64,000 nt of DNA from Verrucomicrobiales bacterium (GTDB taxonomy: Bacteria > Verrucomicrobiota > Verrucomicrobiia > Verrucomicrobiales > DEV007): the NCBI GenBank assembly GCA_016795385.1, contig JAEUHI010000041.1:1-64000 (forward strand), in the 5' to 3' direction. This document shows, in pieces, positions 12,946 through 35,581 of this stretch (the stretch's first letter is position 1; each line of letters opens with the position of its first letter). The notes below the pieces were generated by a model. The model was not told the origin of the DNA, did no database searches, and saw only the letters and a program-made list of their open reading frames with translations. Made by a program: the position numbers and the translations under genes.

Positions 12946-13035
12946 GGACAGGTGTCTGAGCGGTCTAAGGAGCACGCTTGGAAAGCGTGTGTAGGGGAAA
13001 CTCTACCGTGGGTTCGAATCCCACCCTGTCCGCCA
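12946..13035 (+). tRNA. tRNA-Ser (anticodon GGA)
   Basis: A class II tRNA of 90 nt. The acceptor stem GGACAGG pairs with CCTGTCC. The D-arm carries GAGCGGTC. The anticodon loop TTGGAAA in a CACGC/GCGTG stem gives anticodon GGA, decoding UCC and UCU. A long variable arm around GTAGGGGAAACTCTAC and the T-arm GTGGG-TTCGAAT-CCCAC follow. The 3' CCA is encoded, unlike the tRNA-Ala at 32103. Confidence 0.97.
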
Positions 13036-32008: not shown

Positions 32009-32102
32009 AGACCCCGATCCTTCGTTTCCTCTGATTTTCCGTTTGCCTAACCGGGGATTCTGTAGCAAAGTCCCCGCCCGTCCCGAAAGGGACTCCGGAA
32101 AC

Positions 32103-32175
32103 GGGGCATTAGCTCAGTTGGTAGAGCACTTGCATGGCATGCAAGGGGTCAGCGGTTCGAATCCGCTATGCTCCA
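32103..32175 (+). tRNA. tRNA-Ala (anticodon GGC)
   Basis: A 73-nt tRNA. The acceptor stem GGGGCAT pairs with ATGCTCC (one G-U), with discriminator A. D-arm GCTC-AGTTGGTA-GAGC, anticodon stem CTTGC/GCAAG with loop ATGGCAT giving anticodon GGC (GCC and GCU codons), T-arm AGCGG-TTCGAAT-CCGCT. The 3' CCA is not encoded (ACTCCC follows), so it must be added. Confidence 0.97.
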
Positions 32176-32177
32176 CT

Positions 32178-32196
32178 CCCCGACCGGTCGTCGGGG
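32178..32196 (+). terminator. Likely terminator hairpin after tRNA-Ala
   Basis: CCCCGAC and GTCGGGG form a perfect 7-bp stem around a 5-nt loop, starting 3 nt after the tRNA. It stands between convergent transcripts. Only a short T-containing tail (CTGTTG) follows, so termination is probable, not certain. Confidence 0.5.
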
Positions 32197-32204
32197 CTGT
32201 TGCC

Positions 32205-32657
32205 TCAGAAGTCATACTTGAGGACACCCGTGCCACGGATGCGCTGACGTCCGATTTTCTTCGGATCGATCGCACGCACCAGCTTCACCGAACCGTACTC
32301 GCCGAAGGTGATGGAACGGCGGCGGATCGTGATGTCGGTGGTGAAGGAGTCGGAGACGTTCACGCCGGACTTGCTGACCTTGAGGACGATTTCGACCGGG
32401 TATCTGCCGGTGAGCCGGCTTTCCGGGACCCGGGTGCCGACTTCGCTCGTCATGGTGCCGCGCAGTTCGACTTCGAGATTGAGCTTCCCGTATTCGCCGT
32501 TGCCACCGACGGTGCCAGTGATGGCCTGACGGGCCTTGTTGTTGTAGATCGATCCGATGAAGCCGATGTTCGCCACCAGATCGTCCGCACCCGCATTCGC
32601 AACACCCGCCAGCAGCATGGCCGCCAGCCCGATCTTCGTCATCCAGAGTTTTTTCAT
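32205..32657 (-). CDS. Small secreted protein, unknown
   Basis: A 150-residue exported protein. MKKLWMTKIGLAAMLLAG opens a signal peptide ending near ANAGADD. The mature part is beta-rich and lysine/arginine-rich (LVANIGFIGSIYNNKARQ, LNLEVELRGTMTSEVG, VEIVLKVSKSGVNVSD), likely a beta-sandwich or small barrel. No catalytic motif and no known family was recognised. It faces tRNA-Ala across a hairpin and is separated from the fasciclin gene by a terminator, so it is probably transcribed alone. The in-frame ATG at 32690 lies before the signal and is unlikely. Confidence 0.65.
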   Translation of the reverse strand: MKKLWMTKIGLAAMLLAGVANAGADDLVANIGFIGSIYNNKARQAITGTVGGNGEYGKLNLEVELRGTMTSEVGTRVPESRLTGRYPVEIVLKVSKSGVNVSDSFTTDITIRRRSITFGEYGSVKLVRAIDPKKIGRQRIRGTGVLKYDF

Positions 32658-32751
32658 TTGAGAGAGTCCCCGGGTTGAGTGGGGAAACACCGCGAACGAT
32701 ACGGGCGCGGAGAGACCCCGTCAAACCGCCTCGACGGACTCTTTCGGGCAA

Positions 32752-32838: not shown

Positions 32839-33330
32839 TCATTCAGGGAGAATCACGCTGTCGATGACGTGGATGACGCCGTTTTTGCCGACGAGATCGG
32901 TTTTGACGACCTTGGCTCCATCGATCATCACGGCACCGTCCTTGACCTCGATGGTGGCTTCCTTGCCATTCACGGTCGCGACCTTGCCGGCTTTCACATC
33001 GGCGGCCATGACTTTGCCGGCGACGACGTGGTAGGTGAGAATGCCGGTGAGCTTCTCCTTGTTCTCGGGCTTGAGAAGCGTCTCGACGGTGCCCTCGGGC
33101 AGCTTCGCGAAGGCTTCGTTGGTGGGGGCGAAGATGGTGAAGGGACCATCGCCCGAGAGGGTCTCGACGAGACCGGCCGCCTTCACCGCAGCGACGAGAG
33201 TGGAGAAATCCTCGGCTCCAGCGGCGATTTCGACGACCGTTTTGGAGGCGGGTTCGGCGCGGAGCGCGGGGGTCGCAAGTCCGGCGACAAGGGCGAGAGA
33301 GGCAAGGGAGAGGAAACAGCGTTTTTTCAT
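32839..33330 (-). CDS. Secreted fasciclin (FAS1) domain protein
   Basis: A 163-residue protein: signal peptide ([17 protein letters not shown] to LRAEP) plus one FAS1 domain. The H1 box reads [17 protein letters not shown], the middle Y-H motif TYHVVAGKV, and the H2 box [13 protein letters not shown]. Single-domain secreted FAS1 proteins mediate weak adhesion or matrix contacts in bacteria. The start MKKR gives a proper signal peptide; a longer frame upstream has none. The gene stands alone, with a terminator behind it and an AT-rich stretch in front. Confidence 0.93.
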
Positions 33331-33537: not shown

Positions 33538-33870
33538 ATGAACCGTCCCACCCTCCGCGATTTCGCACTGCTCTTCTTTGGCTCCGCCTTGTTCCTCGCC
33601 CTGCCGCTTTCGGCGAACAATCCCCTCTCCTCCTCGGCCATTGCCAAGGTCTATGGGAAGATCCAGTTCGTCTCGAGCTTTCCCGATTACAAAGTGCAGG
33701 TCGTCACCTCGTTTCCGGATTTGAAGGTCCAGAAAGTCAGCTCGTTTCCTGATGCCGTCGGCAAATGGCAGATCGTGGAAAGCTTCCCCGACTTCAAAAT
33801 TCAGATTGTGGAGAGCTTCCCGGATTTTAAGGTCCAGTATGTCGAGAGTTTCCCCGGACTCGCCCGCTAG
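33538..33870 (+). CDS. Small exported protein of six SFPD-type repeats
   Basis: A 110-residue protein. After a hydrophobic leader (about 8-26) the whole mature part consists of six units of about 10-13 residues with consensus hydrophobic-Q/K-x-V-x-SFPD-x-K: IQFVSSFPDYK, VQVVTSFPDLK, VQKVSSFPDAVGK, WQIVESFPDFK, IQIVESFPDFK and VQYVESFPGLA. Alternating hydrophobic residues predict a small beta-solenoid or stacked hairpins. The family was not recognised with certainty, although similar tiny repeat proteins seem widespread. Its end overlaps the start of the nuclease gene by 32 nt in another frame, suggesting coupled expression. The function is unknown. Confidence 0.75.
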   Translation: MNRPTLRDFALLFFGSALFLALPLSANNPLSSSAIAKVYGKIQFVSSFPDYKVQVVTSFPDLKVQKVSSFPDAVGKWQIVESFPDFKIQIVESFPDFKVQYVESFPGLAR

Positions 33871-34759
33871 GCGCTGCCTCCCCTTCCACCGCTTTTTCAC
33901 CGGCTGCCTCGTCCTCGCCTGCTCCCTCGCCCGGGCCCAGGAGCCTTTGCAAGAGATCCCGGGTTGCTCCTATGTCGCGACCGACTGGGCCGACGGCGAT
34001 TCCTTTCTCGTCCGCCTGCCCGATGGGAAGGAAACGGTGCTGCGTCTGTATTTCGTCGATTGCCTTGAAACGGATGTGGCTGACGTCACCGGAAAACGCC
34101 GCCTCCGCGAACAAGCCCGCTATTTCGGCGTGGAGGATTTCGCGCTCGCCCACCAGTTCGGCACGGAAGCCAAGCGCTGGGTGGCGGAGACCCTCGCGGA
34201 GCCCTTCACCGTGCACACGGCTTTCTCCAAGGCCCCGGGCCGCTCGGGCACGCCACGGCATTACGCCTTCATCACGACCCAAAGCGGGCGCGACCTCGGG
34301 GAGTGGCTCGTTGAAAAGGGATTCGCACGCGCCTTCGGCTTCGGCCGATCGCTGCCCAACGGCACGAGGCGCGACGACTGGCAGGCCGAGCTGGAGGATG
34401 CCGAACTTTCCGCCGCGCTCCGGGGCCGGGGCCTTTGGAAACACTGCGATCCCGACAAGCTCGTCGCAATGCGCCGGGAGCAACGCGAGGAACTGCGCGC
34501 CCTCGAGGCCATCGACGACGCCCTCACCACGGCCCCGCCGGAAGAGCCGGTCGATTTGAATTCCGCCTCGCTGGAAGAGCTCGTGCGGACGGGGCTCCGC
34601 GAATCTCTGGCGGACGAGGTCATCAAACATCGTCCCTTTTCCAGCCTCGACGAACTCACCGAGGTGCGCGGGATCGGACCGGCCACCTTGGCGAAGGTGC
34701 GTCCTTATCTGAAAATTGTCTCCGGATCGAACGAATCGCCCGACAAACCCGCACCTTGA
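33839..34759 (+). CDS. Secreted nuclease: SNase-like domain plus helix-hairpin-helix
   Basis: A 306-residue protein. The N-terminus has a signal-like stretch (FFTGCLVLACSLARAQ). Residues about 40-200 resemble a thermonuclease (SNase) domain: DWADGDSFLVRLPDGK, TVLRLYFVDCLETD (Arg and Asp positions), and GRDLGEWLVEKGFARAFG. Residues about 240-295 form a ComEA-type helix-hairpin-helix DNA-binding unit: VDLNSASLEELVR, ADEVIKHRPFSSLDELTEVRGIG, then PATLAKVRPYL. The combination suggests a secreted or periplasmic DNase, perhaps for DNA uptake or nutrient release. The start lies inside the preceding gene; no later ATG keeps the signal. Catalytic residues are only partly clear. Confidence 0.78.
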   Translation: MSRVSPDSPARRCLPFHRFFTGCLVLACSLARAQEPLQEIPGCSYVATDWADGDSFLVRLPDGKETVLRLYFVDCLETDVADVTGKRRLREQARYFGVEDFALAHQFGTEAKRWVAETLAEPFTVHTAFSKAPGRSGTPRHYAFITTQSGRDLGEWLVEKGFARAFGFGRSLPNGTRRDDWQAELEDAELSAALRGRGLWKHCDPDKLVAMRREQREELRALEAIDDALTTAPPEEPVDLNSASLEELVRTGLRESLADEVIKHRPFSSLDELTEVRGIGPATLAKVRPYLKIVSGSNESPDKPAP

Positions 34760-34792: not shown

Positions 34793-35581
34793 ATGGATCG
34801 TGATCAAAACCTCTCCCGCTTTCTCCAATCCGACGGACGCACCGTCATCCTCCCCATCGACCACGGCACCGCCATCCCCGTGCCCGGTCTCGAAGACCCG
34901 ATAGGGTTGATCGAGCAACTGAACCCTGTTGTGGATGGCTACGTCGTGAATCTCGGTCTCGCCTTTGCCGCCGCCGAGGTCCTCGAGGGTAAGGGCGTCT
35001 GCCTGCGCACCGACTGCTACAAGCCCCGCTACGGCGACAATCTCGACGAGGGCAGCTACCGCCTCTACGGAGCCGACGAGGCCCTCACCTGCGGGGCCCA
35101 CGCGATGATGAACATGCTTTACACCCATCACTCGAACGAGACGGGGATTTTCCGTGAAGCGGCCGAGCTCATCGCCGAGAGTCTCGACGCGGACGTGCCA
35201 GTGATCCTCGAGGCGCTGCCCTTCGGGATCGGACGTCCGAACGATTACACCCTGGAAAACATCGGCTACACCGTGCGTGCCGCCGCCGAGCTGGGATCGG
35301 ACATCGTCAAGACCGCCTTCCCCACCGGCGCGAGCGCGGAGGAGTTCGGGGCCATCGTCGAAGCCTGCTTCGTGCCCGTGATCGTGCTGGGCGGAGCCGC
35401 CATGGGCGATGATCGCGCCCTGCTCGAGATGGTGAAAAAGGCCATCGACGGGGGGGCCGCCGGCATCGCCGTGGGACGTAACGTCTGGCAGCATCCCAGC
35501 CCCGCCAAAATCGCCAAAGCCCTCCACGCCATCGTGCATGACGAGGCCACGGTCGATTCGGCGCTGAAGTGCCTTTCTTGA
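34793..35581 (+). CDS. Class I aldolase (DeoC/LacD/FbaB superfamily)
   Basis: A 262-residue cytosolic TIM-barrel aldolase. VILPIDHGTAIPVPGLE is the family's opening strand and loop. GSDIVKTAFPTGAS holds the Schiff-base lysine. VPVIVLGGAAMGDDRALLEMVKKAIDGGAAGIAVGRNVWQ is split over the phosphate-binding GG and GR loops of the closing strands, as in FbaB and LsrF. It may cleave fructose-1,6-bisphosphate or a related phosphorylated sugar such as tagatose or 2-keto-3-deoxy products. The neighbouring genes do not settle the substrate. The start at MDRDQNL was preferred over an ATG 30 nt earlier, which adds a basic stretch not normal for the family. Confidence 0.82.
   Translation: MDRDQNLSRFLQSDGRTVILPIDHGTAIPVPGLEDPIGLIEQLNPVVDGYVVNLGLAFAAAEVLEGKGVCLRTDCYKPRYGDNLDEGSYRLYGADEALTCGAHAMMNMLYTHHSNETGIFREAAELIAESLDADVPVILEALPFGIGRPNDYTLENIGYTVRAAAELGSDIVKTAFPTGASAEEFGAIVEACFVPVIVLGGAAMGDDRALLEMVKKAIDGGAAGIAVGRNVWQHPSPAKIAKALHAIVHDEATVDSALKCLS

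Follow-up and report, generated by a model that had tools for sequence, protein, structure and literature searches.

The window, a 64,000-nt stretch of a Verrucomicrobiales contig (JAEUHI010000041.1), carries a gene for a small repeat protein (the SFPD gene) whose 3′ end overlaps the start of a gene for a likely secreted nuclease with a staphylococcal nuclease (SNase) domain and a helix-hairpin-helix (HhH) domain. The features considered here are as follows.

32839..33318, minus strand: fasciclin-domain gene, divergent neighbour
33538..33870, plus strand: SFPD mini-protein gene, relative of Q9PR55; 110 aa, ATG start, apparently exported
33538..33615, plus strand: likely Sec signal peptide of the SFPD protein; cleavage near ALPLSA/NN, read by eye; hydrophobic N-terminus in most relatives (rough rule)
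33676..33858, plus strand: six SFP[DG] turns spaced 11 residues apart, except for one step of 13; strands from the model
33839..33870, plus strand: SFPD/nuclease gene overlap; 32 nt, SFPD stop codon included; nuclease ATG within the last-strand codons (YVES)
33839..34759, plus strand: likely secreted SNase-HhH nuclease gene; 306 aa, ATG start
34043..34441, plus strand: SNase domain (Pfam match, residues 69-201)
34544..34711, plus strand: ComEA-like HhH domain (Pfam HHH_3; 2duy match)
34793..35581, plus strand: DeoC/LacD-type aldolase gene, the next gene of the block, which stays when the nuclease is missing

The block runs amidohydrolase, SFPD gene, (SNase), DeoC, radical SAM, and the syntenic neighbours identified comprise the amidohydrolase, fasciclin, DeoC aldolase, and radical SAM genes together with methylpurine-glycosylase-like and RRM-like genes, the last two labelled by eye. 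Because scans for promoters and terminators between 33300 and 35000 recognised none, it is the overlap that points to a shared transcript of the SFPD and nuclease genes. Genes for tRNA-Ala (ggc, 32103-32176) and tRNA-Ser (gga, 12946-13035) also lie in the window, and a listed ORF (32043-32678) that crosses the former is likely spurious.

The SFPD protein and its nuclease neighbour

The SFPD protein begins with a Sec-like N-terminus (MNRPTLRDFALLFFGSALFLALPLSA; cleavage by eye) and would accordingly be exported as a mature chain of 84 residues. Six SFP[DG] units occur in this chain, against a maximum of two in 100,000 shuffles of it. The preliminary description had the mature protein consist wholly of six SFPD units; the sixfold repeat is there, strictly as five SFPD and one SFPG, but the first strand comes after a lead of about a dozen non-repeat residues, and the 11-residue period is interrupted by a two-residue insertion in the GKW region. 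Codons differ among the six units, with both serine codon families used, which argues for an old repeat maintained by selection at the protein level. Comparison with locus L011 gives dN/dS values of 0.085 for the SFPD gene and 0.112 for the nuclease gene, so both evolve under purifying selection.

The assignment of the second gene to an SNase-HhH nuclease is borne out by both domains, which exceed their Pfam cut-offs (HHH_3, PF12836, 52.2 bits vs 27; SNase, PF00565, 23.9 vs 21, above but weak), and by an N-terminus that looks signal-like by eye. Residues D52, D54, R69, D74, E77, and R140, which we take to be of catalytic type and equivalent to those of Staphylococcus aureus nuclease, are conserved in at least 97% of 32 aligned relatives, an alignment that leaves out L110 and the SNase matches without a fetched locus. 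SNase domains cut DNA and HhH domains bind it, and the product is presumably an active nuclease. Its likeness to ComEA holds for the HhH domain, which matches the ComEA-related structure 2duy (E 7.7e-12), but goes no further: the nuclease scores 36.7 bits with the ComEA model TIGR01259 (comE), far below the cut-off of 152.35, and it does not reach the cut-off of the EcnA model.

A predicted knotted fold with many relatives

When PDB sequences were searched by phmmer, the sole clear relative of the SFPD protein was the Ureaplasma protein UU089.1 (Q9PR55; 8iwa, E 1.1e-12), and a 68-row family profile matched the same chain at E 1.3e-16, with no second chain up to E 0.01. The Pfam and NCBIfam collections gave nothing above cut-off, and a Pfam match to BA_2335-like (E 0.031, below cut-off) was dismissed. 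Modelling from the 68-row alignment gave six strands of 4-5 residues at a mean pLDDT of 91.4 for the mature protein, replacing a poor single-sequence AlphaFold model (pLDDT 61.9). Foldseek searches with the alignment-based model returned solely Q9PR55 entries below E 0.001, with TM scores of 0.57-0.64 by query length, and VIA-align superposed model and Q9PR55 with Z 8.2, rmsd 2.5, 68 aligned residues, and 46% identity; VIA-align listed no fold besides Q9PR55 entries, which does not of itself exclude other folds. By homology and by model, the SFPD protein is thus placed in the Q9PR55 family, with the same predicted fold. The homologous core is 38-46% identical to that of Q9PR55 (PDB 8iwa, 8iwb, 8iwc, 8jrm, 8w68; 7_1 knot) in structure alignments, and SFPD turns are common to both, whereas the window protein differs in its likely signal peptide, one extra clean C-terminal SFP unit, and its nuclease neighbour.

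To our knowledge, the 7_1 knot of Q9PR55 is the most intricate protein knot known, and the structure paper is reportedly that of Hsu et al. 2024. The knot was predicted by Brems et al. (PMC9278004) and the crystal structure was later solved (PMC13352647, PMC11223836); no function for the 7_1-knotted family was found in these papers. The preliminary description was right that such repeat proteins lack an assigned job, but their fold was already known. P73136, a 112-aa protein with 48% identity to Q9PR55, is reported in PMC9278004 as a homologue of the same family, predicted to be 5_1-knotted. The SFPD protein is probably knotted as well, and since so close a homologue is reported as 5_1, its knot type is not to be assumed.

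The PHROGs v4 family phrog_6462, itself built from viral proteins, matches residues 35-108 of the SFPD protein over positions 29-102 of its 103 (E 1.8e-27). DUF6150 (PF19647), with a YKNQAD-type repeat, resembles the SFPD protein, in the alignment, in its repeated D-x-K-[VI] strands and central GxW, but has a 13-residue period and a different turn motif; its Pfam model is absent from the matches of the SFPD protein up to E 1, and hhalign of the two families gives a register-consistent alignment at a probability of about 2% from thin profiles. Three exported-looking DUF6150 proteins (L187, L188, L189) have the strand layout and central GxW in common with the SFPD family, at scores too low to call them relatives, and one Bacteroidales genome (G465) carries both families.

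A genome scan returned 395 relatives of the SFPD protein. The 80 best were fetched and fall in Verrucomicrobiota, Planctomycetota, Pseudomonadota (many in Pseudomonas, with several soil members of that genus carrying the gene), Myxococcota, Spirochaetota, and Cyanobacteriota, among others. Identity to the mature SFPD protein is 50-87% in the 67 aligned rows (68 with the window). These were drawn from 86 fetched loci, with some near-identical loci of Pseudomonas and others left out and L084 dropped because the span used for it held a stop. Occurrence was 8/288 genomes in a phylum sample (single-sequence search; one, L008 at E 7e-4, is doubtful and unconfirmed by profile), 32/189 in an order sample (profile search), and 3/299 in a Pseudomonas-phylum sample that includes the starting Pseudomonas. 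Six viral contigs carry a relative. With tblastn, relatives were found in three plasmid records and in no phage record; the low-complexity filter of BLAST may hide such repeats, so that absence from these records weighs little. Judged from these sequences, the Q9PR55 family is widespread, patchy, and highly conserved over many phyla.

All of 15 diverse rows keep an Asp and Val pattern and the central G-x-W unchanged, and the divergent members L007, L009, and L010 have GED or GAD in place of SFPD, so that the SFPD motif itself is not essential. A tree of the family proteins (77 columns) remained unresolved. The small genome G149, from the same class as the window, has three family genes (L005, L009, L010), two of them the divergent GED/GAD forms in similar surroundings, and a rumen bacterium has two at one locus (L046), the second with a degenerate last repeat. 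By a rough N-terminus rule, 69 of 87 copies were called exported, 16 without a signal, and two undecided, with some of the 16 appearing miscalled by eye (e.g., L048, L067). Most relatives look Sec-like; twin-arginine-like N-termini occur in L016 (RRCFLV), L024 (RRRFLI), L031 (RRTLLA), and L067 (RRTFLT).

Overlap, reach, and turnover of the gene pair

The overlap of the two genes in different frames is exactly 32 nt (33839-33870), as first described. Ten distinct loci with an intact pair are available, the window included and two of them near-copies (L011, L012), with nucleases down to 54% identity to that of the window (G357). All ten have a nuclease-frame ATG within the last-strand codons of the SFPD gene, and the overlap measures 32 nt in eight and 29 nt in two. 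Such constancy makes translation from the overlap, and with it coupled translation of the two genes, likely. At L134, the overlap ATG is the sole start from -200 to +150 nt around the SFPD stop, which makes its use at that locus probable. Relatives without any nuclease also commonly have the YV[DE]S motif (codons TAT GTx GA); since the ATG arises from the conserved Tyr-Val codons, its presence alone requires no selection.

The proposed coupling of SFPD gene and nuclease stands within one lineage, with its 10 loci and similar overlaps, where it exceeds chance, but not for the family at large. Checking adjacency, as had been proposed, placed an SNase gene beside 8 of the best 80 of 395 relatives. 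All eight belong to the 18 with a record title naming Verrucomicrobiota or one of its subgroups, against 0/62 of the remaining fetched relatives. No SNase gene was found beside the other 72 of the best 80; for two of these, L031 and L077, the downstream sequence is too short to tell. Within the order, the intact pair occurs in 7/32 SFPD-positive genomes, which all belong to the same genus as the window. Linkage to the nuclease does not extend beyond one verrucomicrobial lineage. Nuclease matches occur in 139/189 genomes of the order (E 1e-10), many spanning the SNase part only, and the SFPD gene is far rarer there. No neighbour family is common to the family loci among 80 downstream and 46 upstream neighbours, where Pfam tallies show solely lineage-specific families such as Peripla_BP_5 (8/80). 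With L024 and L083 omitted, the downstream set covers 80 of 82 ORFs; the upstream set covers 46 of 81, mostly those on the SFPD-gene strand. The ORFs were called by a greedy program, which performs unreliably on G+C-rich sequence and missed the SNase of L021. Searches of the accessible literature found no paper on a pair of SFPD or knotted protein and nuclease, and the repeat motif led solely to unrelated titles among the matches listed.

Within the block, either partner can be missing. Four genomes (G320, G414, G402, G382) have the SFPD gene directly before DeoC and no SNase at the block, and in G428 an intact SFPD gene precedes a nuclease that has lost its catalytic domain, its signal-like N-terminus and HhH being left in different frames. 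Conversely, G374 (L101) keeps the nuclease, whose start overlaps a degenerate scrap of the SFPD C-terminus that the profile matches over 54-78 (E 0.02). G362, which the DeoC tree places as sister to G374 (98/79), is a tentative second case with a possible shorter scrap undetected by profile, and holds another SFPD-family gene elsewhere. In other members of the genus (e.g., L161, L163, L164), DeoC and radical SAM are present, and neither the SFPD gene nor the nuclease gene lies between them or ahead of them. On the DeoC tree, the pair label requires six changes among the labelled rows, a number as low in 391/500 shuffles, so that pair presence is no more clustered than in shuffled labels; G320 and four rows that all have the pair make up a starred clade (97/96). 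Since drafts and MAGs account for most of these genomes, single cases could be assembly errors. SNase-family matches elsewhere in G320, G414, G402 (a full SNase-HhH, E 4.2e-98), and G382 leave room for a partner in trans; in G428, the sole SNase-family match is the leftover fragment at the block.

What the pair may be

The explanation we consider probable is a self-sufficient, exported, knotted envelope protein that shares a transcript with a scavenging nuclease, with no obligate complex between them. The SFPD protein would wind its six short strands, joined by SFPD-type turns, into a torus-type knot and function by itself in the envelope, as a highly stable domain for binding or protection, with the turns forming a conserved surface; this molecular role is a guess. 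A secreted SNase-HhH nuclease would have come to share the SFPD-gene transcript in the verrucomicrobial lineage, its translation beginning at the ATG inside the last repeat and its expression thereby coupled, and would probably scavenge DNA outside the cytoplasm. Homology and fold, stand-alone relatives, the overlap start in 10/10 pairs, and the independent losses support this explanation, and the retention of the same overlap over 10 loci, with nucleases as distant as 54% identity, counts against it, being odd for a purely accidental neighbour. The SNase-family matches elsewhere in four of the five genomes without a whole nuclease at the block, the further SFPD-family gene of G362, and the failure to recognise a promoter or terminator weigh on the same side.

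An earlier proposal, that of a nuclease with a binding partner or inhibitor, is disfavoured as an obligate unit by the independent loss of either gene. Each appears dispensable to the other on evolutionary time, and an obligate pairing is improbable, although the two may be partners briefly or in trans. The broader version, which gives the SFPD protein a dedicated role as inhibitor, chaperone, or specificity partner co-exported with the nuclease in this lineage, draws on the overlap kept in every intact pair, the apparent export of both proteins, and the strong purifying selection on both genes. It is nevertheless unlikely, given the nuclease that persists beside a mere scrap in G374 (and tentatively G362), the SFPD genes that persist beside no nuclease or a gutted one, the unclustered labels on the DeoC tree, the 395 relatives elsewhere, with no SNase neighbour beside the 62 fetched ones whose titles do not name Verrucomicrobiota, and the presence of an SFPD gene at just 7/30 fetched SNase loci.

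Three further readings are less probable still. A pure accident of neighbourhood, with the ATG a by-product of the Y-V-[DE]-S codons and the nuclease inserted behind without functional or expression tie, is helped by a start codon that comes free in nuclease-less relatives and by partners that turn over, but sits poorly with the retained overlap and with L134, where that start is probably used. We hold it equally doubtful that the SFPD protein leaves the cytoplasm unfolded, forms its seven-crossing knot once in the envelope, and acts there on the co-translated DNase, binding it and either shielding or tuning it. A DNA-uptake unit, with the HhH nuclease acting like EndA/ComEA and the SFPD protein as part of the receptor, had been suggested and matches the HhH domain's kinship with 2duy, but is very improbable in view of the comE score and of block neighbours among which no competence gene was seen.

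Returning to the favoured account of a self-sufficient knotted protein, the window adds an apparently exported, operon-like member to a known knotted fold. The breadth of the family means that the Ureaplasma protein is no oddity, and many members seem, from their N-termini, to be secreted. If so, the knot must arise once Sec export is over or, in members whose signals are Tat-like, ahead of export, and may thus be exported ready-tied in some bacteria and unfolded in others. The window also gives the 7_1-knotted family a concrete candidate partner together with natural genomes that lack either gene, which makes the partner hypothesis directly testable; were the DNase-binding reading true, the most complex protein knot would gain its first known partner and function.
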